Below, one piece after another: positions 26,905 through 43,320 of a DNA stretch of 64,000 nt. Position 1 is the stretch's first letter, and each line of letters starts with the position of its first letter. Made by a program: the position numbers and the translations under genes. The notes beneath the pieces are model-generated. The model saw only the letters and a list, made by a program, of their open reading frames with translations. It made no database searches and had not been told where the DNA came from. This stretch comes from a virus, in IMG/VR virus record IMGVR_UViG_3300030090_004128, positions 1-64,000 of that record; one strand, 5' to 3'.

Positions 26905-27297
26905 TTAATTGAATTTTGCGATCATGATTTGATCAATGCTTTTTTGCACTTCTTTTTTATCAGCTTCAAGTTCAAACATTATATTAGCTTTAAATCTTTC
27001 TTTCTCCTCTCCACTCTCAAATATAATAACAGTAGGTATGCAAGTTACTTCATACTTAGCTTGAAGATTAGGATATTCAGCTATATCAATTCTATACTTT
27101 GAGCAGTCATTTAAATTTGAAAGATCAACAAATTCATTAGACGAGTTCCATTCAACCCAAAATTCTACAGCCACTATATCTTTAGCTATTTTCTGATTGA
27201 AATTATCTTCATTAATAAACTCTTGTCCTGTAACTTTAGATCCTATAACAAGGATTAATATAAATGCTATTAATAATTTTAAGTCTAAATATTTCAT
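26905..27297 (-). CDS. Exported thioredoxin-fold protein lacking the CxxC site
   Basis: 130 residues with an N-terminal hydrophobic signal/anchor (about 5-20). VAVEFWVEWNSSNEFVDL (42-60) matches the thioredoxin active-site strand, but the usual W-C-x-x-C is W-N-S-S-N, so no disulfide chemistry is possible. The cis-Pro loop TCIPTVIIF (85-93) and a following helix complete the fold. A periplasmic binding or scaffold role is likely. It is one base upstream of the SNase gene. Confidence 0.72.
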   Translation of the reverse strand: MKYLDLKLLIAFILILVIGSKVTGQEFINEDNFNQKIAKDIVAVEFWVEWNSSNEFVDLSNLNDCSKYRIDIAEYPNLQAKYEVTCIPTVIIFESGEEKERFKANIMFELEADKKEVQKSIDQIMIAKFN

Positions 27298-27298
27298 A

Positions 27299-27580
27299 TT
27301 ATTTCATATTATCCATCTTCTCCCTAAGATATTTGATATCATCTTTTATCTCTTTTACATCCTCCTCTGTTTTTAAAATTGAAGCTCTTATATATTCATC
27401 TTTCATTTTGAACTCCATTTGAGTAACCTCTGGTTTTGGGGGCTCAGGAAGTAATTTAGCTTCATCAATATCAGCCTGTAAAGTGAACCACATACCAACT
27501 AATGTGGCTATTAAAAAAGCTATTCCACCCATTGTTTTTAGGCTTACTTCAAATTTAGAATCTTCTGATATTTCTTTCAT
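27299..27580 (-). CDS. Single-pass membrane protein with coiled-coil tail
   Basis: 93 residues: a membrane segment at about 17-35 (GGIAFLIATLVGMWFTLQAD) followed by a Pro-rich hinge (LPEPPKPEV) and a charged coiled coil to the end. The topology fits a lysis accessory (spanin- or holin-helper-like) or envelope protein. No lipobox. Confidence 0.55.
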   Translation of the reverse strand: MKEISEDSKFEVSLKTMGGIAFLIATLVGMWFTLQADIDEAKLLPEPPKPEVTQMEFKMKDEYIRASILKTEEDVKEIKDDIKYLREKMDNMK

Positions 27581-27582
27581 AA

Positions 27583-27990
27583 TTATTTCTTTTTTTTGTT
27601 AACTCTACATTTCCATTTTCTAAGTGCTAAAGCTTTTCTTGTTGGCTTACCTTTACTATCCTTCATTGGTCCCTTCATTCCACCCATTCTAGCACAAAAA
27701 GACTTACGTCTCTTAGCGTCTTTACTACCCTTTTTAACCTTCCCAGTTACAGGAGCCTTTAGCTTACTACCAGGGTTTTCTCTTTTATAAGAGTCCCTAC
27801 CTTTTTTATTTAATCCTCCTGTAGGATTTTTACCTTCTTTTCTTGTCCAAGCTGCTGTTTTAGCTCCCTTTTTAGCTTTAGGAAAACCAGCTTTCATGTC
27901 AGCATAAGACTCATCACTTATAGTAGAATCTTTTTTAGACCTACTTGTCCCAGCTTTTTTTCTTTTATTTATGTTAGCATACAAACTCAC
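27583..27990 (-). CDS. DUF6321-like basic phage protein
   Basis: 135 residues, extremely Lys/Arg-rich. AAWTRKEGKNPTGGLNKKGRDSY and then KSFCARMGGMKGPMKDSKGKPTRKALALRKWKC (in parts, about 46-130) follow the pattern of a widespread small phage protein family annotated DUF6321. Probably nucleic-acid binding and packaged; the exact role is unknown. It overlaps the next membrane-protein gene by four bases. Confidence 0.72.
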   Translation of the reverse strand: MSLYANINKRKKAGTSRSKKDSTISDESYADMKAGFPKAKKGAKTAAWTRKEGKNPTGGLNKKGRDSYKRENPGSKLKAPVTGKVKKGSKDAKRRKSFCARMGGMKGPMKDSKGKPTRKALALRKWKCRVNKKKK

Positions 27991-28199
27991 TTCTTAGCGA
28001 ATTTTTCTACACCACTAATACCAAAACAACCAAGGACAACCCATACAAACGAATCGTAAACAAACTCATTTATAACTAGATCATAACCATACCAGCCCGT
28101 CATTAGATCAGCGACCATTATTATACACATTATTAAGAAAGCTATAAAACCGATTATAGCCTTTTCATTCCAATTATTATCGTCTTTAAATATATTCAT
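27987..28199 (-). CDS. Two-pass membrane protein, holin-like
   Basis: 70 residues with two hydrophobic segments (about 14-32 and 46-62) joined by LMTGWYGYDLVINEF, ending in VEKFAKK. The size and topology resemble class II holins, so it may be a second holin or antiholin beside the 3TM holin on the other strand. Overlaps the next gene by one base. Confidence 0.5.
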   Translation of the reverse strand: MNIFKDDNNWNEKAIIGFIAFLIMCIIMVADLMTGWYGYDLVINEFVYDSFVWVVLGCFGISGVEKFAKK

Positions 28200-29116
28200 T
28201 ATTCTTTCATTTGTCTAACTCCTCCAAAACTTTCTTTTAAAACGTTCATTATCTCATCCTTACTCATATTTTGCATAAAAGCAGGTAATTTACCTTTTCC
28301 TTCTTCCTCATTATTTTTTGCTCCTTCAGCATTTTCTAGACTAGGTAGAACAGTTTCGTTCTGGCCAGCCATAATATATTTAATATAAGGTCTAAGATAT
28401 TTTTGACTATGATACATTTGATCCATATCTTCACCAGCGTCCATCATTTCATAAACTGTTATTAAAAAAGGAACATGTTCTTCAGAGGCACCATACGTTG
28501 GAGGCGGTTTGTCACCTAGCCATTTTTCTCCATCAGGTCTTTCAGTAGTTAGATTTTTTGTTGGATTACCAGCTTCTTCAGTGCTTTCTCCCTTCATCAT
28601 CTCAATTTCTTCAGGCGTTACGCCAAGCTCTCTCTGCATGTAATCGTCTACAGCGTCATTACGAAATCTTTCTTCCCAATGCATTTCCTCCTTAGATTCT
28701 TCATCAAATTCAGGCTTACCTCCATCCTGCATAAATTGCATTTTTGCCCCATCACGTGCATCAAAAGGTCTAAATGTTTTTGTGTTAATCCTTCTCTGAC
28801 CATCGTTATCCTCTCCAAAAAAATGAAGGTGATATTCATTGTTTAATATCTCACTTTTAGGAGCGTTCTTTTTATAAGACCCATCTTCTATAGCTGCATT
28901 AGCTTCTTCTAAACTGTTATATATATGTCCTGTATATGTTTTTTTAGATGGAACATTACCCGTTTCTTTACCTCCTTCTTGATAAGTTCTTAATGGAGTG
29001 TCTCCCTTATTACCCATTAAAGGGGTTAATGGTTGAGGACTTGGGAAAACCATAGATTGATTACCCATTCTTTTTTTATTAATTCCTCCTCCTTGATATT
29101 TTTTGTTTATTTTCAT
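28199..29116 (-). CDS. Gly-rich/acidic virion-associated-type protein
   Basis: 305 residues. The basic, glycine-rich start (KINKKYQGGGINKKRMG) and repeated QEGG/QDGG patches recall the 867- and 464-residue proteins. The middle includes HIYNSLEEANAAIEDGSY and RRINTKTFRPFDARDGAKM; the C-terminal third is helical and acidic. No enzyme motif. Probably a minor virion or assembly protein. Confidence 0.5.
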   Translation of the reverse strand: MKINKKYQGGGINKKRMGNQSMVFPSPQPLTPLMGNKGDTPLRTYQEGGKETGNVPSKKTYTGHIYNSLEEANAAIEDGSYKKNAPKSEILNNEYHLHFFGEDNDGQRRINTKTFRPFDARDGAKMQFMQDGGKPEFDEESKEEMHWEERFRNDAVDDYMQRELGVTPEEIEMMKGESTEEAGNPTKNLTTERPDGEKWLGDKPPPTYGASEEHVPFLITVYEMMDAGEDMDQMYHSQKYLRPYIKYIMAGQNETVLPSLENAEGAKNNEEEGKGKLPAFMQNMSKDEIMNVLKESFGGVRQMKE

Positions 29117-29928
29117 TTCAATAAGTATTTTATTTTACCACCCTCTATATATATTCCTTCTGGCTTTCTTATAACTCTACCAGTTAAATCATATAAAAGT
29201 CCAGTATCAATAGATTTATCTAATATTTCTTCCATCCCAGAATTGCAAGGCATTCCTGTATCACAATCTACATATTCTGTATTTATTACTTCAACATATT
29301 CTACAACAGTATCAACAACAACTATCTCTACATATTCAGTCTCTACAACTGTGTCTATCACTATCACTTCTACGTATTCAATAACATCTACATACATAGT
29401 GTCTAAAGCTCCATCCATCCATAACGTGTCTGTTACATATATATATTCAGGAACCATAACCTCAACCTCAAATGTATCTACAACAATCTGAGTTATATAT
29501 TCTGTTTGTATTATTGTGTCTAATTGTATTATAGTTTCATAGATATAAAAAGGAACTTCAACCTCTACTGTATCAGTTATATATTCTGTTTCAATAATTG
29601 TGTCTGTTTCATATATATATTCATATTCTACTACAGGTATCTCTACATACACTGTATCACATTCCTCTACAGGAGGAGCACAGTCTTCTAATGTTGTTGG
29701 AACAGCACCGTTTTCATCACTGGCATCGACACAATCTTCCCATTCGTCATTTATCCAAGAGTTTTGAACACAACCCATTGGAGCATACTGAGTCCAATTA
29801 GCTGGATCGTCACCACAATAATAACCACCTGCATTAGCACAATCTATACATAATTGTTGAAAATCATAACCTTGAGCATTAACAAACGAACAACTCAAAG
29901 TAAATAATATTATTAATAATTTTTTCAT
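29113..29928 (-). CDS. Exported repeat protein with T9SS-type C-terminal sorting signal
   Basis: 271 residues. Signal peptide MKKLLIILFTLSCSFVNA; a Cys-rich head (about 26-94) with six or more Cys; then about 130 residues of repeated D-T-[VIL]-x-E-Y/V segments (DTIIETEY, DTVEVEV, DTFEVEV, DTVVETEY, DTVVEYVEV); then a second small Cys pair; and a C-terminal stretch GLLYDLTGRVIRKPEGIYIEGG...KYLLK that matches the T9SS type A sorting domain (YDxxGR...GIYI...K). It would cross the outer membrane through the host type IX system and end up on the cell surface. No known enzyme domain; an adhesin or shield role is possible. Confidence 0.7.
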   Translation of the reverse strand: MKKLLIILFTLSCSFVNAQGYDFQQLCIDCANAGGYYCGDDPANWTQYAPMGCVQNSWINDEWEDCVDASDENGAVPTTLEDCAPPVEECDTVYVEIPVVEYEYIYETDTIIETEYITDTVEVEVPFYIYETIIQLDTIIQTEYITQIVVDTFEVEVMVPEYIYVTDTLWMDGALDTMYVDVIEYVEVIVIDTVVETEYVEIVVVDTVVEYVEVINTEYVDCDTGMPCNSGMEEILDKSIDTGLLYDLTGRVIRKPEGIYIEGGKIKYLLK

Positions 29929-29935
29929 ATCTATT

Positions 29936-30643
29936 TTATTTATCGTAACTAAAATATTTCACTTGAAAATCGGAACTTTGTTCTCCAACTTTATCTAATC
30001 CTTTTTCTGTTAAATGATTATTTATAACAACCATTTGTGGTTTATCCATTTCTTTTAAAACCTCTTTGTTTTTAATTGTTCTAACAAGTCTTCCATCATA
30101 ATACATTTCAATTACATCTTTTCTCCAGTTGCATCCATATTTTATAAAATGCTTTCTAGGATCTTTAAACATCATTCCAGCACGTGCAGGAAGATTAGTT
30201 TTAGTCCCCTCTGAAGTATTACCGTAGTGTATGCAAGACTCCACTTTATTGTAGGCTAATGGATTATGTATATTAAAATGTAAGTAATCTTGTCTATTAC
30301 CAGTATAACCCTCAAAAATATCTATCTCTGGGGGCCAAGGTGATCCATACATCCAAAATGCTGGCCACAAAGCATATCCCGTAGGCAGCTTAGCTTCTAT
30401 CTCAAAATATCCAAAATGAAATTTCTTAATAGATGATATAAGTCCCACACCATAATTAGATTTATAATTTACACCATTATGTTTAATTGTTGCTGGGTTA
30501 AATCGTGTCTTTAAGTGAATTACACCTTCTCCATCAATTTCAACAGCAGACTCATCATAATAATTCCAAGATTTATCAGGGTGTATTTTACCCCAAGGTT
30601 CTTGACATCTCCATTTAAAACCTGACCAATTCAGTTTTTTCAT
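29936..30643 (-). CDS. Glycoside hydrolase family 16
   Basis: 235 residues; endo-acting beta-glucan or galactan hydrolase (laminarinase/agarase/carrageenase class). GYFEIEAKLPTGYALWPAFWMYG leads to the catalytic motif EIDIFE (E106 nucleophile, D108, E111 acid/base). Short strands before and after complete the beta-jelly-roll, and the length is near the family minimum, with no carbohydrate-binding module. There is no signal peptide, so it is either virion-borne or released at lysis to cut host capsule or algal glycans. Substrate cannot be told from sequence alone. Confidence 0.85.
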   Translation of the reverse strand: MKKLNWSGFKWRCQEPWGKIHPDKSWNYYDESAVEIDGEGVIHLKTRFNPATIKHNGVNYKSNYGVGLISSIKKFHFGYFEIEAKLPTGYALWPAFWMYGSPWPPEIDIFEGYTGNRQDYLHFNIHNPLAYNKVESCIHYGNTSEGTKTNLPARAGMMFKDPRKHFIKYGCNWRKDVIEMYYDGRLVRTIKNKEVLKEMDKPQMVVINNHLTEKGLDKVGEQSSDFQVKYFSYDK

Positions 30644-30645
30644 AA

Positions 30646-31694
30646 TTAAAAGAACAAATAATTAAACCCAAACTTCACTTCATACACTGGTTTCATCCAG
30701 TATCTCATATGGGTTCCCTCTACAAACATACCTAAATGTTTTGTTATACGAGATCCAAATACCATACCTGCATCCCATTCTATATTATCCCATTCCTCTC
30801 TTCCATACTCAAATGAATACTCATCCATTCCATAGTGAAAAGGCATACAATTAGCCCATATATGTAGCCAAAATTTAGGGGTATATTTATAATATGCTAT
30901 TCCAACAACAGCACTTAATTCTTTTTGCATTCCAAGCTTTTCAAGCTCTCTTTCATTGTATCTTTCTACTGCGTCTCCGAAGTAGTGGTTGAAGAACTCA
31001 TCATTCGAGGTAGCAACTAAAACGGAGTCTCCACCACTAACATCGTACCAGTTTTGATTTACGTAAAAACCTTGAACCCATTGTTCTGGAGCAAACCCAA
31101 AGTCTTGAGCCAACTGTTGAAAAGTAGACTCGCCAGGTATCCAGAAATCTTCTATAGGGGTTACACCATAAACTGGATGCATACGAAAGACTCCACCTAT
31201 TGTGAAGTCCCAATTTCCTTTATTAATTCTAAATCTTGTATCAAATGAGTTATATCTTAAATTAACTCTCTGATTATCTTTATATTGAACTTTTGTCACG
31301 CATCTATTTCCAAGGTATCTAAGCCAGAAATTTTGCTCAGTATATTTATCCCCACGATTACGTATAAATGAATAATTAAGTAAATACTCCCAACCAACGC
31401 TATTACCAATAGTAACATTGTCTGCAACAGCTTTTTCAGTGCCATAATACCATGTTTTAACTTTGTATTCATAATCAAATCTTGCTATTTTACGCAAGCC
31501 TATAGTTAAATTATAATCATATGGATGGACTCAATAGCAATATAATCACCTCTCTCAACAAAAGGGGTGTTCATTGTCATTGAAGTATAAAAAGTTGAAT
31601 ATTTAAAAAAGTCTCCTTGACTAAAAGCAGTGGATATTCCAAACACCACTATCATCATTATTATATAAAGTATTTTACTTATGTCCTTTTTCAT
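30646..31694 (-). pseudogene. Frameshifted exported beta-barrel-like protein
   Basis: One gene in two frames. From 31694 a signal peptide (KKDISKILYIIMMIVVFGISTAFSQ) and QGDFFKYSTFYTSMTMNTPF follow; this frame stops at 31506. The other frame resumes at about 31524 with PYDYNLTIGLRKIARF and continues to 30646 with many aromatic strands (KTWYYGTEKAV; WEYLLNYSFIR; FTIGGVFRMH) and ends FGFNYLFF, like an outer-membrane beta barrel. A one-base loss between 31530 and 31506 joins the parts into about 348 residues. The second frame has no ATG start. It could be an assembly error, a real pseudogene or programmed shifting; no slippery heptamer is seen. Confidence 0.65.
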
Positions 31695-31731: not shown

Positions 31732-34700
31732 TTACTGTGTTTTTTTATCATCTTCTCTCGCCCATACCGTCATCATATATTGAACTTGAGGATCTGTCAC
31801 TATACCCTCTTCTACAAATAAATCTTCTAAAGTTTGGTATCTAATCGGATTACCTACAGCCTCTTTTTGAGCTTCATAAACTATAAACGCTGCTGTCATC
31901 TTTTTACCCTGCTTAAAATCTATAACAGCTTGTTGAATATCAGATTCGTATTCCCCAAAATTCCAATCCATAAAAATTTTTCTAGCTATTCTGAGATCTA
32001 CCTGATCCCTATTCCATAATTTTTGATCTATCACTGGATCATTACCAAGCCTACCTTCAATCTGTCTATGAGTTTCAGCTATAACTTCTTGAGCTAACAA
32101 ATAATAATCATCTCTAGCATCATTACCAAAACGCAATTTTTTACCATTTTTATCTACCATAGCACCTGAGTTAGGATCTCTTCTTAAAGCAAATCTTTCA
32201 GATGCCGCCTTATAAGCTAAATTTAGGTTAGCTTGGAACCTCTCCTCTGTTTCTCTTATGTGGTCAGCTTCAGCTTGTAATTGTGTTTTTTGATTTCTAA
32301 GAAGATCAATTTCTCCAATATATCTTTTTGTTACTGGACCAAAAGCGTCATTTAAAAACACATTCATTTGATTACCGTACTTCTCTTTTTCATACTCATT
32401 TAAACCTCCAGTGGCAGCCACATAACTATGATTAACTACAGCGTTCCATGGACTCCTATCCATATTAGTAAGCATAGAGCCTATTGCTGACTTTATAGTT
32501 GTAACACCGAAACCTCCTTCTTTTAAACCCATTTTATCAAATCTCTTAGATAAATCCATTAACCACCTATCTTCATATTTATCATAATCACCCTCATATT
32601 GAGTATATCCGTTAGCTGCCTCATTGTAATCATTCCATACAGGTCTATTGTAAAAAGCATCATAGTTACCTAAAACTTTTAAAGATACATTTAAAAGAGG
32701 GTTTGTTGATATTAGATCCCTAGGGTTACCACCACCAGCTGGTATAGCTTTCTGTAGTATTCTACCGTAAGAATTTTTCTCATCACCTCTACCCCAAGGA
32801 GTATATGATGAAAAATCTTTAGACTGAATAAAGTAATCACTACCTGTTATGTGTTTAAATGCTAACTCTTCCAAAGGTAATCTAAAAACATTTAATCTAG
32901 CATCACTAGGTATCTTTAAATATCTAGGAGTCACAATTCTATTGTCAGACAACTGATTTTTTATTTCAGCTATCCTTTCATCTCTTTCTTCTCCAATCTG
33001 CATGCTTTCAGCTATTTTTAATTGCTCTTGTAGAGCCACTTCCTTTTCTTGACTAACTATATCTGTAACTTTACCAGGTAATATTACACAGTGGTAATTT
33101 TCTCGATCATAAGGGCTAATATGATTTATATAGTATCTTCTATTTTTATATAGTTTTTCTCTTATCTTTTTCTCTAATTCCCTATTTCCACTTGCTACAG
33201 CCTTATCTAAAGCATCTTGTAATCTTTTTTCTTCATCTTCGTCTAAAATATCAAAATGCTGTAAATTATAAGCCATTAAACCAAGACCAAAAACTGAAGC
33301 CCACTGTGCTGTATCCCAAAGAAATTGCTTAGGGTTTTCACTAACATACCTAACACTCTTATCAAACACTTGTGCCGCAGCATTAAGGTAAGCAAAGCCT
33401 AAAGAATCAAGAAATTTAATCGTTCTACCTCCATTATTAAAGTTAGCATAGTCAACTGCATTAGCTACAGCTCTTTTTTTAATAGCTATAAGGTCTTCTC
33501 CTGTGGGTTCTTGCCCATCATTTTTCTCTTTATATTCTTGTGTGTATTTTTTAATCCACCTTCTAGTATTAGCAAGTCTACCTGTCATTTCAGAAGTTGA
33601 GTTCATCTTCGCAAAAAAGTTTTTTATAGCGTTTTTATACACCTTTACGGTATTAGGATTTACATAAGGAGCGTCATCACCATACAACTTAGACATTTGT
33701 TCTCTAGCTGCCTTTTCTCTAGCACGCTCTTCATTGAGAGTGTTTTCAGGGTCTGACATTATCTCCCTTGCTCTTTTTGTTAACGCCACTTCGTCTATAG
33801 CTAAATCAGATGAATAATCCATTAATCCATATCTAGTTAAAAACTCTAAAGATCCCCCAAGCATTTTGTATTCTTGACTAAGAGGTCCATTTGTTCCCGC
33901 ATCCCAAAGTACAGCGGCCCAGTCAGTAAACGCCATCCCAAATTTAGCACCTAAACCTAGGAAGGGTACAGGATTGGTGGCCATACCATTATAAGTATCT
34001 GTAAACATAACTTGCTGAGCGAAATCATAAAATACATTAGCAACAAAGAAAAATGGTGCACCAACACCAGTAGCGAATACTTTAAGTGCACTACCACTCC
34101 ACCTCAAAGGTTTAGTAATTAATTTAAGTTTATCACCAGCAGGAACCATTTCTCTAGGGTGAGCAAATAAACTTTGGTAAGCTGCATTTTTCATAGCAAA
34201 TCTAACCTTTTTACCACCTTCATTGTAGCTCATTTCAACGTATCCAGGTTTTACTTTTTCCCCATCTTTTAATATATACCCTATATCTTCTATTGTCATT
34301 TGAAGACCATTAACATACTCAAATCCTTTTTTAGTTACTTCAGATATTATATTATATATACCTTTTCTAACTTCATTCTCGGCTCTTAATTTAGCTCCTG
34401 TAGCTAGCGTGTTCTGCAATAACTTAACTGGATCCATGTATAAAACACTATCACTACCTTGCTTTAACATTTTTAAAGGAGACTCTAAATGATCGCCCCT
34501 ATCTGAACGACCTGATTTTCTTTGCTCATTTAAATTTCTCTCTGCAAATATTACATAGTCAACAAATTTTCTTGGATTATATTTAAAGTTTTTAAGCTCA
34601 TTGTAAGTTGCTTCATCTATTAATCCTGCTTCAAAATTTCTTTTTAACTCATTACTATATTCTTGAAATAGTTTATCTGTAGTTTCTCTAATAATATTAA

Positions 34701-37700
34701 ATCCATCACCCTGTTCTCTCTTCATATTGTCAATCAATTCTTGAGCAAGCTCCTTATTTATCATAACTCTACCCTCACCTTTAGGGTTTTTAACATCTGG
34801 ATGTTTCATCCTCCAAGGATGAACCTTTTTCTTAGTAGTTGGATTTACTATTGATTTGATTCCAGGCTTCATTCTAACAACAATCTCTTTACCATCTTTA
34901 TCTTTAGTAAGATACTCTAATTCATATTTGGTGCTCTCCTTACCCCATCTTTTGCCATCGTATTTTTTATCTCTAATTTTACCTTTACTAATTCTAACAT
35001 TAGGATTGTCTTTATATATATTTTCTAATTGAGCTTCAGCTTGTTTAATTTGATCTTCTACAGCAGACCTTTCTTCTTTTGTTTTTACACTACTATATTT
35101 TTTAACTAAAGAATTTAAGTTTTTAATAATAGCATCCGCAGCAACTTTTTGAGCGTCAGATAAATTATCAAGCTCTATTATTCTTTCAAGTGTAGATAGT
35201 TGACCTACCAGTTTTATTTGCTTTGAAGATAAAGCTCCCCATATTTTTTTATTAGCCTGATCTATAAGTTCTTTAGCTGTACCTGGAACCGTTAACCATA
35301 AGGTTATAGAAGCAAGTGCGTTAGAAGCTGTCTCCCCCAAGTTCATATCTTTACCTATATTTCTAATAGATCTCTTTATTCTATATTTAGTATCTACCGT
35401 TGCCTCTTTTAACTTAACAAACGCATCGTCTAAAGATCTTTTGAAATCTGCAAGCCTTCCAAAGAAATTATCTTTACCTCTAGAGAATGCTGCATCTTGA
35501 TCCTTCTGTAATTCCTCTAAAACCTCTGAGTAATCTGAATCCGTCCACCCCTCCAGGTCTATCTCAGAATTTAAAGCGTCAATCATCTCAAGAGTTTGTT
35601 TTTCCCTCATCTCTTTTAAACGAGCCTCCTCCTCTTCAAGTTTAGCTGCCTCTTCTTCTGTTAATTCAGTTTCACCAGAGACACCAGCTTCTTTAGGATT
35701 AAACAGTCCTTCTTGATTAGATAAAAAGTTTTTAAATAATTCTCTTATTTTAACTTCTTGATCTGGTATAAAATTATCCCCATCAGTTTGAGCTTTCTTT
35801 AAGTAGTCTATAGCGGCATCTACAGCTTTAGCCACACTAGAAGTAGCCCTAAGAACAACAGAAGCTGTTTTAAGAGCCGCTCTAATAATAGGTATAGACA
35901 TAAACGGATCTGCATAAGCATTTCCACCCAAATCTTTATATATCTGATCTAATTTATCTGCAAAATCTGTTAAGATTTGAAAACGCTGAACGCTTCTACT
36001 AGAGTATTCATCTCCTGTTCTGAGATCTGAGATGTCCTTGGCGTTGTCCCCGCTATTAATAGCTCTTTGCCTTCTGGCAAGCTCTCTATTGATGTCTGTT
36101 TCAAACGACTTTTCTTGTCTTGTAGTGGTTTCGTATTCCCCATTTGTAAAAACTTTTGTGTTAATATATCCATTTTCTACGGTATTAAAAATATCTTCAC
36201 CGTATTTTTCTTGTATTTCTTTTATTCCTTTATCTACACCCTCAATCCATTTTGATTCAAAATCCTTAACGTTACCTACCGTCAATCCCTCACCCATAGG
36301 CTCCATTAAATATTCAGGAACAAACTGCATTGATAAACCTATAACTTCTCCTTTTTGATTGTAATTTACAGTCATTCCTTCTACTCCATTAGGACCAAAA
36401 TGTTCATTAGCAAACATTCTAGCATCAGTTAAAGTCATAGGAGAGTCAAACTCTATTCTTCTAAAAGGTCTAGCGTTAGGATCTTGCTTTGTTGTTACTT
36501 TAGATATAAATACAGACTCTTGTTCGTTATTGATAGCTGTGTTTAATAACTCATCAAATAAAATAGCAAGATCTGTTCCAGTATCAACAAGTATTTCTAG
36601 ATTTATAGTGTCTTCCACTTGATTCATATATATACCTTCCGATTGGTATGGTCTACCCATAGCACCTAACTGAGCAACTATAGCATCTAAATTTTGTAAT
36701 GCTTGATCCATTCTTACAGCTCCCTGCATTGTTTCCGCTATAACAGACGCTATCTCTTCTTCTGTAGCATTTCTTTCTAAAGCATTTTGAACAGCTCTGG
36801 CTGTAGCACTATATATTCTTCTTTTTTGATCTGGACTTGTATTCCCTATAAAAGTGCTAGCACCTATCATTATTCTATCTGTTATCTTAGCAGAATTAAC
36901 AGCATTTTCCATAGTTGCTTGATCTTTAGCTCTCACATCCCCAGTAAATCCAGATTCGTCATATATTTGTTTTTCTATAAACCACATAGCGGCTTGTAGG
37001 TCGTCAGGATTTAAATTTAATTGTCTAGCAGCTAAAGCGTATACACTTTGTGCAAAAGAAAAATCTTTACTACCCACTGTTGTTTCTTGAGATTGTCTTC
37101 TTCTAAATGGTACAAACCCACCTTGAGAATATAATATCCTTCTCATATTTCTAGCAGCCCAAACATCAATAGTAGCACTTCTGTCTCTTAGAGATAAGTT
37201 ATTGTAAAACTGTCCTGTTTTGTTAGCTGGATTATTAGATAACCAATTACCATATAAAACTCTAACAATACCTGAAGTAACTACTGGCAAACCAAATGAT
37301 TTTCCATTTTTCTTTTTTATTCCAGCTACAACATCTTTGTCAGAAGAAGCTTGTTTTATAAGCTCTTTAGCTTTAATTACAGCTTTTTTACCGACTCCAA
37401 AAACACCTTGATCATACTGAGCCATTATGTTTTTTACTTTATTGTCGTATATCTCTAGGGCTTCATCAAACTTACCCTCTGAGTAAGATTTTAAAACTTC
37501 AGTAGATTTTCTGAAATTAATTTGAGGTGGTGCTTGTGGAGATGTAACCCCTAATAATTCAAAGAATATTGATGCATTTCCACCAAACTTCTGTTGTATT
37601 AAGTTTTTTGTTTTACTATACCAACCTGTAGCTTTCTTTAAGTCTATTTTAGAACTATTAGCATTAAAATCCTGTACAAGAAGTTGAGAGGCTAATTCTA

Positions 37701-40700
37701 TTTTTTGTTGCTCTGACAATCCTTGGAAGATAGGAGCCCCACTAAAGTTAAAGGGAAGCTTTTTTATTACAGGTTTTCCATTCTTTAAAACTACAAATCC
37801 TCCATCAAATAATATTTGCATAGGATCTGATAAGCTAGGATCATTTTTCATGTCAACATTATTATGTTGATCTACTTTTGCTTGTAAGTTATCTATTTGT
37901 TTAAGTTCAGGTTTAGTATAATTACCTCTAACAACTTTAGGGTTAACTCTTAATTTAGCTATTTTATATATTTCTTTAGCTTCAAGTGTATTATATTGAT
38001 CTGGATATCTTTCTTGTAAAGCTTCAAAGAATTTAGCTCCAGTTATTTTATTAGCTATAGCTTCCTCAGCAAATTTAACAACCCCATCATTACTAAATAA
38101 AAATCTTCTTTTCAACATTTCTATAGACTTATCAGAGCCAACCTCATTAAAAGCTTCAGCAACTGAAAACTCCCCACTCAACAGCATTTCAGCTCTAAGA
38201 GAACCATCTACTATTCTGTCTGATTTTATAGCATCAATAGCTTTATCAAAAGCGACAGAAAGAGTTTGTCCCGCTTTTAAGCCTGCTTTTAACGTTTTTA
38301 AGAACAGTTCCCACGCCACTGGTCCTAGACCCATAGTTACATCCATATACAGGTTTTTGCCCTTATTTCGATTTATTCTATCTAATTCTGAGTCAATACC
38401 CCTAATTGTTCTATCTACAAGGCTTTCTGTGTTTTCTGGAGATTTTATATTCGGATCAACATCAGAATCATGAGCATTTGTAGAAGCATTTATTAAATCT
38501 ATTACACCAGCTAGCTCTTCTGTTATTTGATCATTAGCCTCCATTAGGTCTATATTCGCAGGACCCTCCATAGATAGCTTCAAAGTTTTTATAGCTTCTT
38601 TTTTAGTTCTTCCAATAGGGGTTTTAGTTGTTAACTCTATCCACTCTTGCTTCCCATATCTTTTAGCTATTAAAAATGGTTTACCATTAACAGTTCCCTC
38701 ATATACTTTTTTAGATCTATTATATTTAAAAGGAGTATCTTGAACCACTTCTGTTTCTGTGTCTGTAGACACTTCTGTTGTAGATGGTTGTTGGAATACA
38801 AATTGATCAGGAAGTAAACCTATTTTCTGGTCTGCAAAAGGCCTATCTTGAGGTCTCACATAATCAGGATCTCCTTTCTGAGGTATACTCCCATCTTCTC
38901 TTCTTAAACCTTGATTAAAGTTAACCCATGAGTTTTGACCTCTAGTTTCTGTTGTCATAGCTCTTCTAGCATCATGACTAAACATTCTAGAGTGATTAAG
39001 CCAAGCATTTTCCTCCCCTTTAATTCCAAATCCATTACCTAACTCTGTATGACCAAAGAAATCATGAACAGCTCTAAATAAGTCATTAACCAACAAAGGA
39101 TTACCGTTAACATCTTGAAATTCTGTAGGTTGAAGTAAGGGGTTTTCTGATCTCATTTGATCTGTTATTTGGCCTTGACCAAAACCAGCCTCTGTTCCAA
39201 ATATATATAAATGCTTATTATCTCTAACATCTTTTATCATCTCGTCACTATTAGCGTAAGGCTCTCCTTTACCATTATAAATTTCAATGGTGTACCCAGC
39301 ATTTACAAGTGATTGATATTGCATTTGAGTTTCATTAGCTAAAGCTGTGTAAGCTTTCTGAACTTTAGGGTCTTGTGGATTATGCTCCATAGACTCATAG
39401 GCATCAGCTATATTTTTAGAGTTTTCTTCATTAATCTCAGTAACTGGAACAGCATCAGAATGTTGTATTCCTAATTGAGGTGAGTTAGTGTTTATATAGT
39501 CTGACGTTATCTGTGATGTTTCTGGGTTGGGGTCATTAAATAGTCTATTACCAGGATTCACCGAGCTTATGCTTCCAGCAGAACTCCTTACCGACTCATC
39601 TTCAAATAAAGTTAGTTGTCTACCACCAGAAGAAGGCATGCCAATATCTTCGTCACGTTCATCTTTAACTGTAGGCAAACCACCAGGACCCTCTCCAATA
39701 GGAATAATAGGACCTCCAGGAGCATCTCCTCCATCATCTCCTCCGTCATCTCCATTTATTCCACTTAAGTGATCTGGAGTTTCTCCAACCATAGTATCAA
39801 AGTCTTCATCTCCCCATAGTGTTAATTGCTCTCCCTGTGGTGATTTTTTATATTCATCCATAACACCCAAAAACTCTTGAACTAATTGAGTATCTTCAGG
39901 ATTTAGAGTGCCAGAGTCCAGCATATCTTGGAAATTCTGCTCTATGCTATTAGCTGTTAAAGTTGTAAAAGCTGTAGATAACCCTACACAAATAATAGCT
40001 GTAGTCATTAACTTATTTATTCTCTCATCTTTTGAGTGACCAACTGTAGCCATTAAAGCTTCTTCCCAGTTAAAGCCCATATTAGTTAAGTTCTCAACAA
40101 ACTCACCTGAATACTCAGCTAATAACTCAGCACCACCACCCGCAAGTATTCTTGGGGGTAGGGTAGCAACTTTAACTCCTTTTTTACCAAAGTTTCTGTA
40201 TAATGTTAATAACCCTCTAGTTACAGGAGTTCTTTTAAATAAAGAGTTCATTACTTGTTCTGTTGCTCCCTCAGCAGCACCCATTCTCCATGTAGCCTGA
40301 TCACCTGATGTCATCTCAAAAGCAACAGCCCCTTTAACTACATTCTCACTAAACTCCCACCAAAATGTACCCACAGGAGTGCTTTTAGCAGCAATCATAG
40401 CGTTTTTAATCATAGGCACTTTGGTAAGAGTTTTTAAACCAGCACCAGCTAAAGGCATAGTAGCAATCATTTCAATCATAATAGGAAGTGTAGTACCTAC
40501 ACCTTGAGCTACCATATCATTCAAGCTTATTTCCCCCGCTACCTTTTGTTCATCTGTTAACTCTATTCCGTAAGCATTAGCTATGTCATCATAGTAGTTA
40601 ATCATATCATCCTCACTATGAACATGTCTTTTATGTACAGCGTGACCAAAAGATTCTGACATTTGTCTCAAGAACAAGCCTGTTCCAGTTTTCTCTGCCC

Positions 40701-43320
40701 ATTCTTTTCCTGGATCAACATTAAATGTTAATACATTAGATATAGCTACTAACTGAGTTTGATTTTCATAGTATCTACCTTTAAAATTCTTCAGCATTTC
40801 TATCATAAACTCAGCATCTTCTTTATTAGATCCCTTTGACCAAGCACCTACATTTTTAGCCCACATCATAGGTATAGACTTATCTATAGATCTTAATTGC
40901 TGTCTTAATCCAATAACACCCACACTTCTTTCAGCCTCGCTATCGAACTGTTCTCTTAATGCTTTTGATCCTCCACCAATACCCAAACTCCAAATAGAAC
41001 TTGTATCACCAGAGGCTTCTTGTATAAAACTATACATTTCTTCTAGTGTCATTTTTTGACCACTAGGAAGTGTTATCTTTTCATTCTTCCATATATCCTG
41101 ATTCATTAATTCAGTAGAATATAGACCATCTTGAGCCCTCATTAGTTGATCTACAAATGCACCGTAATCATCAGCTTGATTTAAAGCTTGCATAAAACTA
41201 GTCTCCGCAGAAACTATTTGTTGCTGTAGAATTTTATCCTCCTCCGTAGCTATAGGATCTTCCATCCTTTCTCCTGATTCTGTGAACATTTCTGTTCCCC
41301 TTTCATACCCTCTCTTTTCTCTATTCTCCTCTATCTTAGCTTTAATAACAGCTACGTCCTGCATTAGTTTAGTAGACTGCTCAACATATTCATCTTCCTC
41401 CATTTTTTCTTTTTTGGCCTCTAATTTTTGCAGTTGGAGATTTTTTTCTTTTAAAGCATTATTTAATTTTACCTGAGTTGTATAGGTTTCTTCATTTTGC
41501 CAGTCCGCTTGAGAAGCAAGAATATTAATATCATTAACTCTGGTTTTTTGGAAATCTTTATAAATATTCATAAAGACTTTATCTTGAAGCATTTCTTCAG
41601 GGTTTTTAAATTTCACACCCTTGCTAGCCTGATACTTGTCTAAAAGCTTTTTAGCCTCTGTGTCAACAGAAAATTCATTACTTAAATCCTGTTGTATCTC
41701 GCTTTTTAATTCACCTATAACTAAATTCATTTGGTAACTTTCAGACCTATCAATTTTAGAATTTATCTGATCATTACTACTATTAAAAAAAGCTACCCTA
41801 TCTTCATGAGTTTTTAAACCACCATAAGCTGTTTTAACATCATTGACACCATGTTTATTGGAGGTTGTTAACATTTGTGCTGTTAACTTAGTTTTAGCCT
41901 CTCTTACAGCATTTATTTGATTTGTTAAATCCTCATACTGAGTCCTTTGCTCCTCACTAAGTGTATTATAATTAACATTCCCAAGTGTAGTTCTTTCATC
42001 TACGCCCTCTTCATATACAGCTATTGGTCTGTAGTATTTATATTTTTTCTCTTCTTTATATACGTGACCACCACCAACAAGCTCACTCCTTTTATTTAAT
42101 AGGCTAGCCATATGATTATCCATATTTAAAATAGTCTCATACTGAGATAAGCCCAACTCATCTACAGATTGGAATGATTGATTTTCATCGCCTGTCTGAA
42201 GACCTGGCTCTATACCATATTCTGATAAAATCTCTTCATTTTCTCCACCACCGATAGGAACTTCATGAAAGAATGTGTTAGTATCAGGATTAACAGCAGA
42301 TAATAAATCTTTTCCATTTTCAGATATAGATGTTGTTAAAGGTATTTGCATGCCCTCATAATCTATAAACTGACCCTCTTCGACACCCTCTAATAATAAG
42401 TTAAAGTTTTCAGGATTTTCACTATATATTTGTGCTGCTTTATAAAAATTAAAATCACCTTCCTGACCGTAGAATTGTTCAAAGTTTTGGTTAAACTCTA
42501 CATTTTTTAATTCTGCTTGAATCTCAGGATTATTTCTCGACTTCTCTCTTTTTTGAAGATCATGTTGATTTTGTATATCTATCTTTAGATCCGCCATCAC
42601 ATTAAAAGGAACCTCAGCAGCATCCACAGGTGATCCATTTTTAGTAAAGGTTTTTAATATATAGTCATAATCCCAAATGTCTTCTTCGGCATTTATATCC
42701 ACCTCTGTGTTATTTTGTTCTTGAGGAACGATAGCTCCATCTTGAGCTGTAAAATATTTGTCTGTTGGAAGTTCTACTATCTTAGACGCTGGAGATGTTG
42801 TCATTTTACCTCCAGGTTTTAATATACCCTGATACCCACCATCTGCATAAACGTGTATAGGATAACCTTGTCTTCCTTCTAGTAATCTAGGTTCTTTGCC
42901 TTTAAAATTAAGAGTAGCTGAGGTGCCAGGTTTTGCACCTTCTAAACCTTTATATAATTCTTCATCTGAACTTAAATTAAGATCAGTTACAAAGGCTCCA
43001 TCTTTAGCTGTAAAACTCTTATTATTTTCGCTTATTTCTAATTGCTCCGATTCTCCAGTTTCCGATTCTAATAAACCATTTGCCGAATCTTTTTTTTTTA
43101 AGGCGTAATGATTAACTACACTTGTTATGTCACTATCACTAGGTTTATATTTAGTTAGTGCACCGTAAATGTCTTTAACCATGGTTTCATAATCACCATC
43201 GTACTGGGCAAAGATCGAATCAATCTCAACTTGAGTTAACCTATAGTTAGGTTTAAACTTCTTGTAGAAATCTGTTACGAATCTAATAGCGTTTTTATCT
43301 TTTTGATATACTACTGCCAT
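31732..43320 (-). CDS. Giant polyvalent, probably virion-internal protein
   Basis: 3862 residues with several modules. About 1-300: helical and acidic. About 935-1075: long hydrophobic/Ala-Gly helices (possible membrane-pass region). About 1180-1200: Gly/Asp linker. About 1330-1510: domain with VHDFFGH (1418-1424) and TETRGQNSWVNF (~1458). About 1900-2115: domain with ELLGVTSPQAPP, VDVWAARNMRR-like and DLQAAMWFIEK, as in phage DUF7178-type modules. About 3060-3340: segment resembling large-polyvalent-protein domain LPD38 (PFFFVANVFYDF; NFNNGGRTIKFLDSLGFAYLNAAAQ). Such proteins are injected with the DNA. No RNA-polymerase catalytic motif (DxDxD) was found. One gene, tightly packed between structural genes. 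Confidence 0.7.
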   Translation of the reverse strand: MAVVYQKDKNAIRFVTDFYKKFKPNYRLTQVEIDSIFAQYDGDYETMVKDIYGALTKYKPSDSDITSVVNHYALKKKDSANGLLESETGESEQLEISENNKSFTAKDGAFVTDLNLSSDEELYKGLEGAKPGTSATLNFKGKEPRLLEGRQGYPIHVYADGGYQGILKPGGKMTTSPASKIVELPTDKYFTAQDGAIVPQEQNNTEVDINAEEDIWDYDYILKTFTKNGSPVDAAEVPFNVMADLKIDIQNQHDLQKREKSRNNPEIQAELKNVEFNQNFEQFYGQEGDFNFYKAAQIYSENPENFNLLLEGVEEGQFIDYEGMQIPLTTSISENGKDLLSAVNPDTNTFFHEVPIGGGENEEILSEYGIEPGLQTGDENQSFQSVDELGLSQYETILNMDNHMASLLNKRSELVGGGHVYKEEKKYKYYRPIAVYEEGVDERTTLGNVNYNTLSEEQRTQYEDLTNQINAVREAKTKLTAQMLTTSNKHGVNDVKTAYGGLKTHEDRVAFFNSSNDQINSKIDRSESYQMNLVIGELKSEIQQDLSNEFSVDTEAKKLLDKYQASKGVKFKNPEEMLQDKVFMNIYKDFQKTRVNDINILASQADWQNEETYTTQVKLNNALKEKNLQLQKLEAKKEKMEEDEYVEQSTKLMQDVAVIKAKIEENREKRGYERGTEMFTESGERMEDPIATEEDKILQQQIVSAETSFMQALNQADDYGAFVDQLMRAQDGLYSTELMNQDIWKNEKITLPSGQKMTLEEMYSFIQEASGDTSSIWSLGIGGGSKALREQFDSEAERSVGVIGLRQQLRSIDKSIPMMWAKNVGAWSKGSNKEDAEFMIEMLKNFKGRYYENQTQLVAISNVLTFNVDPGKEWAEKTGTGLFLRQMSESFGHAVHKRHVHSEDDMINYYDDIANAYGIELTDEQKVAGEISLNDMVAQGVGTTLPIMIEMIATMPLAGAGLKTLTKVPMIKNAMIAAKSTPVGTFWWEFSENVVKGAVAFEMTSGDQATWRMGAAEGATEQVMNSLFKRTPVTRGLLTLYRNFGKKGVKVATLPPRILAGGGAELLAEYSGEFVENLTNMGFNWEEALMATVGHSKDERINKLMTTAIICVGLSTAFTTLTANSIEQNFQDMLDSGTLNPEDTQLVQEFLGVMDEYKKSPQGEQLTLWGDEDFDTMVGETPDHLSGINGDDGGDDGGDAPGGPIIPIGEGPGGLPTVKDERDEDIGMPSSGGRQLTLFEDESVRSSAGSISSVNPGNRLFNDPNPETSQITSDYINTNSPQLGIQHSDAVPVTEINEENSKNIADAYESMEHNPQDPKVQKAYTALANETQMQYQSLVNAGYTIEIYNGKGEPYANSDEMIKDVRDNKHLYIFGTEAGFGQGQITDQMRSENPLLQPTEFQDVNGNPLLVNDLFRAVHDFFGHTELGNGFGIKGEENAWLNHSRMFSHDARRAMTTETRGQNSWVNFNQGLRREDGSIPQKGDPDYVRPQDRPFADQKIGLLPDQFVFQQPSTTEVSTDTETEVVQDTPFKYNRSKKVYEGTVNGKPFLIAKRYGKQEWIELTTKTPIGRTKKEAIKTLKLSMEGPANIDLMEANDQITEELAGVIDLINASTNAHDSDVDPNIKSPENTESLVDRTIRGIDSELDRINRNKGKNLYMDVTMGLGPVAWELFLKTLKAGLKAGQTLSVAFDKAIDAIKSDRIVDGSLRAEMLLSGEFSVAEAFNEVGSDKSIEMLKRRFLFSNDGVVKFAEEAIANKITGAKFFEALQERYPDQYNTLEAKEIYKIAKLRVNPKVVRGNYTKPELKQIDNLQAKVDQHNNVDMKNDPSLSDPMQILFDGGFVVLKNGKPVIKKLPFNFSGAPIFQGLSEQQKIELASQLLVQDFNANSSKIDLKKATGWYSKTKNLIQQKFGGNASIFFELLGVTSPQAPPQINFRKSTEVLKSYSEGKFDEALEIYDNKVKNIMAQYDQGVFGVGKKAVIKAKELIKQASSDKDVVAGIKKKNGKSFGLPVVTSGIVRVLYGNWLSNNPANKTGQFYNNLSLRDRSATIDVWAARNMRRILYSQGGFVPFRRRQSQETTVGSKDFSFAQSVYALAARQLNLNPDDLQAAMWFIEKQIYDESGFTGDVRAKDQATMENAVNSAKITDRIMIGASTFIGNTSPDQKRRIYSATARAVQNALERNATEEEIASVIAETMQGAVRMDQALQNLDAIVAQLGAMGRPYQSEGIYMNQVEDTINLEILVDTGTDLAILFDELLNTAINNEQESVFISKVTTKQDPNARPFRRIEFDSPMTLTDARMFANEHFGPNGVEGMTVNYNQKGEVIGLSMQFVPEYLMEPMGEGLTVGNVKDFESKWIEGVDKGIKEIQEKYGEDIFNTVENGYINTKVFTNGEYETTTRQEKSFETDINRELARRQRAINSGDNAKDISDLRTGDEYSSRSVQRFQILTDFADKLDQIYKDLGGNAYADPFMSIPIIRAALKTASVVLRATSSVAKAVDAAIDYLKKAQTDGDNFIPDQEVKIRELFKNFLSNQEGLFNPKEAGVSGETELTEEEAAKLEEEEARLKEMREKQTLEMIDALNSEIDLEGWTDSDYSEVLEELQKDQDAAFSRGKDNFFGRLADFKRSLDDAFVKLKEATVDTKYRIKRSIRNIGKDMNLGETASNALASITLWLTVPGTAKELIDQANKKIWGALSSKQIKLVGQLSTLERIIELDNLSDAQKVAADAIIKNLNSLVKKYSSVKTKEERSAVEDQIKQAEAQLENIYKDNPNVRISKGKIRDKKYDGKRWGKESTKYELEYLTKDKDGKEIVVRMKPGIKSIVNPTTKKKVHPWRMKHPDVKNPKGEGRVMINKELAQELIDNMKREQGDGFNIIRETTDKLFQEYSNELKRNFEAGLIDEATYNELKNFKYNPRKFVDYVIFAERNLNEQRKSGRSDRGDHLESPLKMLKQGSDSVLYMDPVKLLQNTLATGAKLRAENEVRKGIYNIISEVTKKGFEYVNGLQMTIEDIGYILKDGEKVKPGYVEMSYNEGGKKVRFAMKNAAYQSLFAHPREMVPAGDKLKLITKPLRWSGSALKVFATGVGAPFFFVANVFYDFAQQVMFTDTYNGMATNPVPFLGLGAKFGMAFTDWAAVLWDAGTNGPLSQEYKMLGGSLEFLTRYGLMDYSSDLAIDEVALTKRAREIMSDPENTLNEERAREKAAREQMSKLYGDDAPYVNPNTVKVYKNAIKNFFAKMNSTSEMTGRLANTRRWIKKYTQEYKEKNDGQEPTGEDLIAIKKRAVANAVDYANFNNGGRTIKFLDSLGFAYLNAAAQVFDKSVRYVSENPKQFLWDTAQWASVFGLGLMAYNLQHFDILDEDEEKRLQDALDKAVASGNRELEKKIREKLYKNRRYYINHISPYDRENYHCVILPGKVTDIVSQEKEVALQEQLKIAESMQIGEERDERIAEIKNQLSDNRIVTPRYLKIPSDARLNVFRLPLEELAFKHITGSDYFIQSKDFSSYTPWGRGDEKNSYGRILQKAIPAGGGNPRDLISTNPLLNVSLKVLGNYDAFYNRPVWNDYNEAANGYTQYEGDYDKYEDRWLMDLSKRFDKMGLKEGGFGVTTIKSAIGSMLTNMDRSPWNAVVNHSYVAATGGLNEYEKEKYGNQMNVFLNDAFGPVTKRYIGEIDLLRNQKTQLQAEADHIRETEERFQANLNLAYKAASERFALRRDPNSGAMVDKNGKKLRFGNDARDDYYLLAQEVIAETHRQIEGRLGNDPVIDQKLWNRDQVDLRIARKIFMDWNFGEYESDIQQAVIDFKQGKKMTAAFIVYEAQKEAVGNPIRYQTLEDLFVEEGIVTDPQVQYMMTVWAREDDKKTQ

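Follow-up and report, generated by a model that had tools for sequence, protein, structure and literature searches.

A conserved phage protein family with a sequon-rich stalk and a short T9SS-type sorting tail shared with proteins of its probable hosts

In a stretch of 64,000 nucleotides of viral DNA (IMG/VR record IMGVR_UViG_3300030090_004128, positions 1 to 64,000; hereafter the window), one gene encodes a phage protein that the T9SS of the host probably displays on the surface of the infected cell. The computed support for this reading consists of the architecture of the protein, its conservation, the class of its C-terminal tail, a module shared with host proteins, the presence of PorV and PorU in the likely host family, and the pairing of the gene with a barrel gene in an operon. 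The identity of the host, export, glycosylation, cleavage, anchoring and the purpose of the display are what we infer. The preliminary description of the gene had already proposed a phage-encoded cargo of the host T9SS. Profile searches support this proposal, and so do chromosomal host proteins that end in the same stalk and tail and the occurrence of PorV and PorU. The parts of the protein and its neighbouring genes are listed in Table 1.

Table 1. Cargo gene, parts of its protein and neighbouring genes, with coordinates in the window.
Feature	Position	Strand	Evidence or remark
Whole cargo gene, for a 271-aa secreted protein: LDL-A-like head, DT stalk, short sorting tail of T9SS type (predicted)	29113..29928	(-)	ATG start
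Sec signal peptide, residues 1-18, then Gln19 (Bacteroidota Q-rule)	29875..29928	(-)	Sequence; homologues; helix 2-19 in model
Part of Cys-rich head resembling LDL-receptor class A (residues 35-83), with acidic W-x-D-C-x-D-x-S-D-E cluster	29680..29826	(-)	PF00057 sub-threshold, PDB profile, Foldseek
Stalk, residues 90-218; eight D[ST][AILMTV] O-glycosylation sequons, nine DT pairs	29275..29661	(-)	Sequon counts; pLDDT <50
Conserved linker TEYVDCDTGMPC, residues 217-228, common to host chromosomal proteins	29245..29280	(-)	Sequence comparison
Short T9SS sorting domain (predicted), residues 231-271; putative cleavage motif [GSAN][ILM]	29116..29238	(-)	Motifs, profile; model pLDDT about 80
Motif B YDLTGRVI, residues 246-253	29170..29193	(-)	Y 75/76, G invariant
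Motif D GIYI, residues 258-261	29146..29157	(-)	G 63/76 (S 9, D 4), I261 invariant
Motif E, basic end GKIKYLLK, residues 264-271	29116..29139	(-)	K/R within last 10 residues, 76/76
Partner: signal peptide and predicted outer-membrane beta-barrel ending in aromatic Phe, frameshifted here (ORFs 31506-31694, 30646-31497)	30646..31694	(-)	Upstream of cargo
Small two-TM protein, holin-like	27987..28199	(-)	Neighbour in 45/79 loci
Small one-TM coiled-coil protein	27299..27580	(-)	Neighbour in 67/79 loci
Secreted thioredoxin-fold protein without CxxC active site (WNxxN instead)	26905..27297	(-)	Neighbour in 68/79 loci

The window comes from the genome of a tailed phage, a distant relative of Flavobacterium elemo and Cellulophaga phages as judged from its terminase (35-40% identical). 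Relatives of the cargo gene were found in IMG/VR at 11 loci in a first search and then at 207 loci at least, while among cultured phages no relative of the cargo gene or of the barrel gene was found. The counts given below for signal peptide, head Cys and tail refer to 77 distinct proteins that were extracted, 76 of them complete. Other phage proteins were considered as carriers of the tail and rejected: the best 80 tail loci belonged to the same family, with the exception of one match at a contig edge.

Two features proposed in the preliminary description, a signal peptide and a Cys-rich head, are present throughout the family. By sequence, a Sec signal peptide ending in [A/S/G]Q was found in 77 of 77 homologues; in the window protein it ends in ...SFVNA before the Q. 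Of the 77 members, 76 have seven Cys in the head and one has eight; two further Cys precede the tail.

Every one of the 76 complete homologues has the C-terminal sequence YDLTGRVI...GIYIEGGKIKYLLK. Its motifs are those of a short class of sorting domain described in Prevotella intermedia, where the sortase cleaves the domains and the proteins are glycosylated, and where they measure 43-55 aa and contain a motif B with Tyr and Gly, a motif D of the form GxY-Ile and a basic motif E, with PT/GI as the preferred cleavage site and a conserved Ile at +2 (PMC11969387). In HBP35, the last 22 residues, motifs D and E included, are needed for transport (PMC3120885). In the phage family, Tyr of motif B is conserved in 75 and its Gly in all 76 tails, motif D has Y/F-I in all tails, and motif E has one to four K/R among the last 10 residues in every case; the distance from the GIYI core to the C-terminus is 9-11 residues. 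A putative cleavage site, [GSANQ][ILMV], lies at the expected place in 76 of 76 tails, with no PT in front. The length of about 41 aa is slightly below the published range.

The phage tail and the P. intermedia domains (PMC11969387) have in common the Y..G of motif B, the GxY-Ile of motif D, the basic motif E, the extreme C-terminal position and a size of about 40-45 aa; at the putative cleavage site, both have a small residue followed by Ile, Leu or Met, though the phage tails have no PT in front of it. They differ in that the former is phage-encoded and preceded by a Cys-containing linker and a DT stalk, has mostly Gln after the Gly of motif B, and lacks the Gly of motif D in 13 of 76 cases, where S or D replaces it.

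The preliminary description had assigned the tail to T9SS type A. A tail of the kind that it described (YDLTGR, GIYI, Lys-rich end) is found in all 76 complete members; the class was not confirmed. The profile search that had been suggested, with TIGR04183 and the Pfam tail family, matched nothing in the window protein even when E values up to 10 were allowed, and TIGR04183 matched none of 65 family members and nothing over its cut-off in 47 related phage records. The canonical long-CTD class (TIGR04183 / Por_Secre_tail) was therefore ruled out for the phage tail by the absence of a profile match.

We then used a profile built from the phage tails alone, with the reversed profile as a control. 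In five Bacteroidales genomes, it gave 17, 41, 35, 40 and 19 matches at E up to 1 (152 in total), compared to 0, 0, 2, 0 and 0 (2 in total) for the reversed profile. All of the 20 Bacteroidales matches that were read end 0-5 residues before the C-terminus. TIGR04183 found long tails in the same five genomes; in a comparison of the two lists, few of the short ones overlapped with its matches and none was above its cut-off. Because TIGR04183 scored none of the short tails of these five genomes above its cut-off, its silence on the phage protein is uninformative. In rumen Prevotella / Bacteroidaceae assemblies (L193-L220, G004-G008), dozens of short T9SS-type tails were seen; the published ones are from P. 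intermedia only.

In the structure model, the tail folds by itself (pLDDT about 80) into a helix, a hairpin and short strands, with no clear three-stranded sheet. The structure prediction that had been suggested for the C-terminus thus gave a small folded unit. The preliminary description had taken a missing TIGR04183 match together with a missing beta sandwich as evidence against a sorting tail; this test does not apply, because the tail appears to be a short sorting domain. In its motifs and profile, the phage tail agrees with the short T9SS sorting domains, and the resemblance exceeds chance.

When 298 genomes of the order Flavobacteriales were searched with the tail profile, four genomes (G968, G939, G981 and G1006) were matched at E=1e-15 to 1e-17, and all four are within one family of 12 genomes of 0.8-1.5 Mb. 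The matched proteins (L231-L234) have LRR, Cys-rich or other N-termini, followed by a DT stalk and a tail of the same type; they have a signal peptide wherever the N-terminus is complete, and three of the four have the linker Y[IL]DC.TG[LM]PC. Across stalk and tail, these proteins are 42-43% identical to the phage proteins. The stalk and tail of the LRR protein gave BLASTP matches to the window protein (E=2e-25, 42% over 169 aa) and to L090 (E=6e-39); these E values are inflated by stalk composition, and the tail alone is still significant. For three of the four proteins (L231, L233 and L234), the contig also carries housekeeping genes (lipB, rpiB, dxr, metG, mnmG). In the 12 genomes of this family, PorV was above the cut-off in nine and the PorU sortase in ten; long sorting domains can also be seen nearby. 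At L237:9908-11812 and L239:1-448, the family has further proteins that end in the same stalk and tail, here after numerous Cys repeats of the GCMDPxACNY type.

Among the genome matches, 8 of 21 were internal matches in another protein and were set aside as non-tails. Flavobacteriaceae were rejected as a source of the tail, with matches in 2 of 251 genomes, neither of them a C-terminal tail. In a sample of the phylum, 1 of 396 genomes was matched by the tail profile, again through the set-aside protein. The Flavobacterium-type host suggested in the preliminary description therefore has to be replaced: the best matches to the module are in the small-genome Flavobacteriales family and not in Flavobacteriaceae. 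As judged from the shared module alone, the phages most likely infect members of this small-genome family. Because the stalk and export tag are the same as on bacterial surface proteins, the phage probably uses the host T9SS for display.

The head of the cargo protein resembles an LDL-receptor class A domain (PF00057). This family matched the window head at E=0.0033 with 18.1 bits, below the gathering score of 24.1, and was likewise sub-threshold in 46 of 65 members (best E=4e-4). Nearly all PDB profile matches of the head were LDL-A, and so were the leading Foldseek matches, all with E above 0.5. The Cys spacing is partly the same as in PF00057 and the acidic DxSDE cluster is the same, invariant or nearly so in the family, but one of the six consensus Cys is replaced by Asn60; we therefore describe the head only as LDL-A-like. 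The head probably binds calcium. No enzyme domain was found in the cargo protein by Pfam search.

The preliminary description had reported a D-T-x-E-Y repeat in the middle of the protein. The repeat region is real, and its motif is rather a D-T-[I/V/L] sequon, which recurs every 8-18 residues. Most spacings are even numbers (8, 10, 12, 14, 16, 18), a pattern that an extended beta structure would give if the pairs lay on one of its faces. D[S/T][A/I/L/M/T/V] is the general O-glycosylation motif of Bacteroidota in exported proteins (PMC12871550). Such sequons number 7.4 per stalk versus 0.84 after shuffling, and their density is 2.95 per 100 aa in the cargo versus 0.25 in other window proteins. 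The D and T of the stalk DT pairs are conserved at 0.94, compared to 0.74 for the remaining stalk. The DT sequons are probably O-glycosylated in the periplasm. The structure model of the stalk is not confident, with pLDDT below 50. A mucin-like stalk was rejected, as Ser is nearly absent and the even spacings fit an extended beta structure.

A predicted outer-membrane barrel gene lies directly upstream of the cargo gene in 79 of 79 loci, usually with a gap of 1-4 nt. Conversely, among the best 80 of at least 579 barrel loci, a tailed cargo follows the barrel in all 77 that could be assessed. The model of the barrel has a pLDDT of 75, and its Foldseek matches are barrels. A relationship to PorV or SprF was considered and rejected: there was no Pfam or PDB sequence match, and the fold matches were generic (FapF, OmpG, autotransporter domains). 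In the window, the barrel gene carries a frameshift and missing bases at 31497-31510 when compared to intact relatives such as L052, through either a real mutation or an assembly error.

Downstream of the cargo gene are the genes for the coiled-coil membrane protein, for the secreted thioredoxin-fold protein and, in many loci, for the two-TM protein (Table 1). A GH16 glycosidase gene encoding no signal peptide lies between barrel and cargo (29936-30643); it was rejected as a partner since it is present in only 1 of 79 relatives (L052), and it is therefore regarded as accessory. At 27583-27990 there is a gene for a Lys-rich DUF6321 protein, a domain that forms the C-terminus of larger proteins in several PHROGs. 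Beside the structural genes, a single ORF of 3862 aa extends from 31732 to 43320, and for the C-terminal 922 aa of its product no PHROG match was clear.

We propose the following mechanism. Sec would export the cargo, and signal peptidase I would cut before Gln19. In the periplasm, O-glycans would probably be added to the DT sequons of the stalk, and PorV would recognise the short sorting domain at the C-terminus. The cargo would then cross the outer membrane through the T9SS translocon, after which the PorU sortase would remove the tail and attach the cargo to surface polysaccharide. The LDL-A-like head would then be held off the surface on a glycosylated stalk, beside the phage-encoded outer-membrane barrel. 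Late in infection, barrel and stalked protein may alter or mask the surface, which would keep phages from adsorbing to a dying cell and to what remains of it.

Blocking of re-adsorption or of superinfection by the same or other phages is accordingly the most likely purpose of the display, though a tentative proposal. The site of the gene downstream of structural genes suggests late expression, which argues against it; superinfection exclusion genes are often early. Still more tentatively, barrel and cargo may form a dedicated two-gene system, in which a calcium-binding head on a glycosylated, T9SS-displayed stalk controls adsorption together with the barrel.

Display by the T9SS might instead serve lysis or release, the barrel and the stalked protein, together with the two-TM, coiled-coil and thioredoxin-fold neighbours, disturbing the outer membrane or the surface layer at lysis. 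We regard this as somewhat unlikely. The cargo gene does have the structural genes on one side and, on the other, a block with holin-like, one-TM coiled-coil and DUF5675 proteins, and the neighbours are kept in most loci; however, the small neighbours matched no lysis family, and no enzyme domain or obvious lytic activity goes with a stalked, adhesin-like LDL-A head. A benefit to the host is an unlikely purpose. Here the protein would be an adhesin or a nutrient-binding surface protein that aids attachment of the infected cell or of the particle and has no anti-phage function, similar to roles proposed by the authors of the Cryophage study (PMC7468147). The LDL-A-like, probably calcium-binding head is in line with such a role, as is the host's own use of the same stalk and tail on LRR and Cys-rich heads, but a cell about to lyse has no evident gain from it.

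Two further explanations were considered. That the protein is a fibre or decoration of the virion, its signal peptide and tail serving another purpose or the protein joining virions at the cell surface, could be argued from the late-gene location adjoining structural genes and from the beta-rich stalk with its evenly spaced DT pairs. It is improbable given the Sec signal peptide in every one of the homologues, which is rare in virion proteins assembled in the cytoplasm, and given a stalk and tail common to chromosomal surface proteins of the host. We likewise give little credence to the tail as a folding or trimerisation cap that merely resembles a T9SS signal on a protein remaining periplasmic. 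Such a cap would account for the missing match to curated CTD profiles and for the small folded unit in the model; it would not account for the specificity of the tail profile against its reversed control, for the C-terminal position of all Bacteroidales matches that were read, or for the occurrence of this tail on unrelated proteins of a host family that has PorV and PorU.

Phage-encoded T9SS cargo is a kind of protein already known, since Cryophage cargo genes (PMC7468147) and one crAss-BACON ORF (PMC6949934) have been described earlier. The Cryophage genes are also phage-encoded and have a T9SS sorting domain, but they are described as variable and combine sorting domains of type A with PA14 or enzyme domains, whereas the present family is a single conserved one with a short tail and a constant barrel partner. 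The crAss-BACON ORF likewise has a phage-encoded T9SS tail near structural genes; it is, in contrast, a single case from gut phages, with BACON repeats. The closest architecture is that of the Flavobacteriales proteins L231-L234, which have the same DT stalk and tail but an LRR or Cys-rich N-terminus in place of the LDL-A-like head. As far as could be found in the literature, a large conserved phage family with a short host-type module, a sequon stalk and a fixed barrel partner is new.

The phage family appears to exploit a secretion system specific to the phylum, and probably host protein glycosylation too, through a module common to host surface proteins. The results also suggest that short sorting domains of the T9SS, hitherto reported from P. 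intermedia only, exist in Flavobacteriales and in further Bacteroidales. They provide a likely host family for many viral contigs that are still unassigned, and make it directly testable why phages should carry genes for T9SS cargo.
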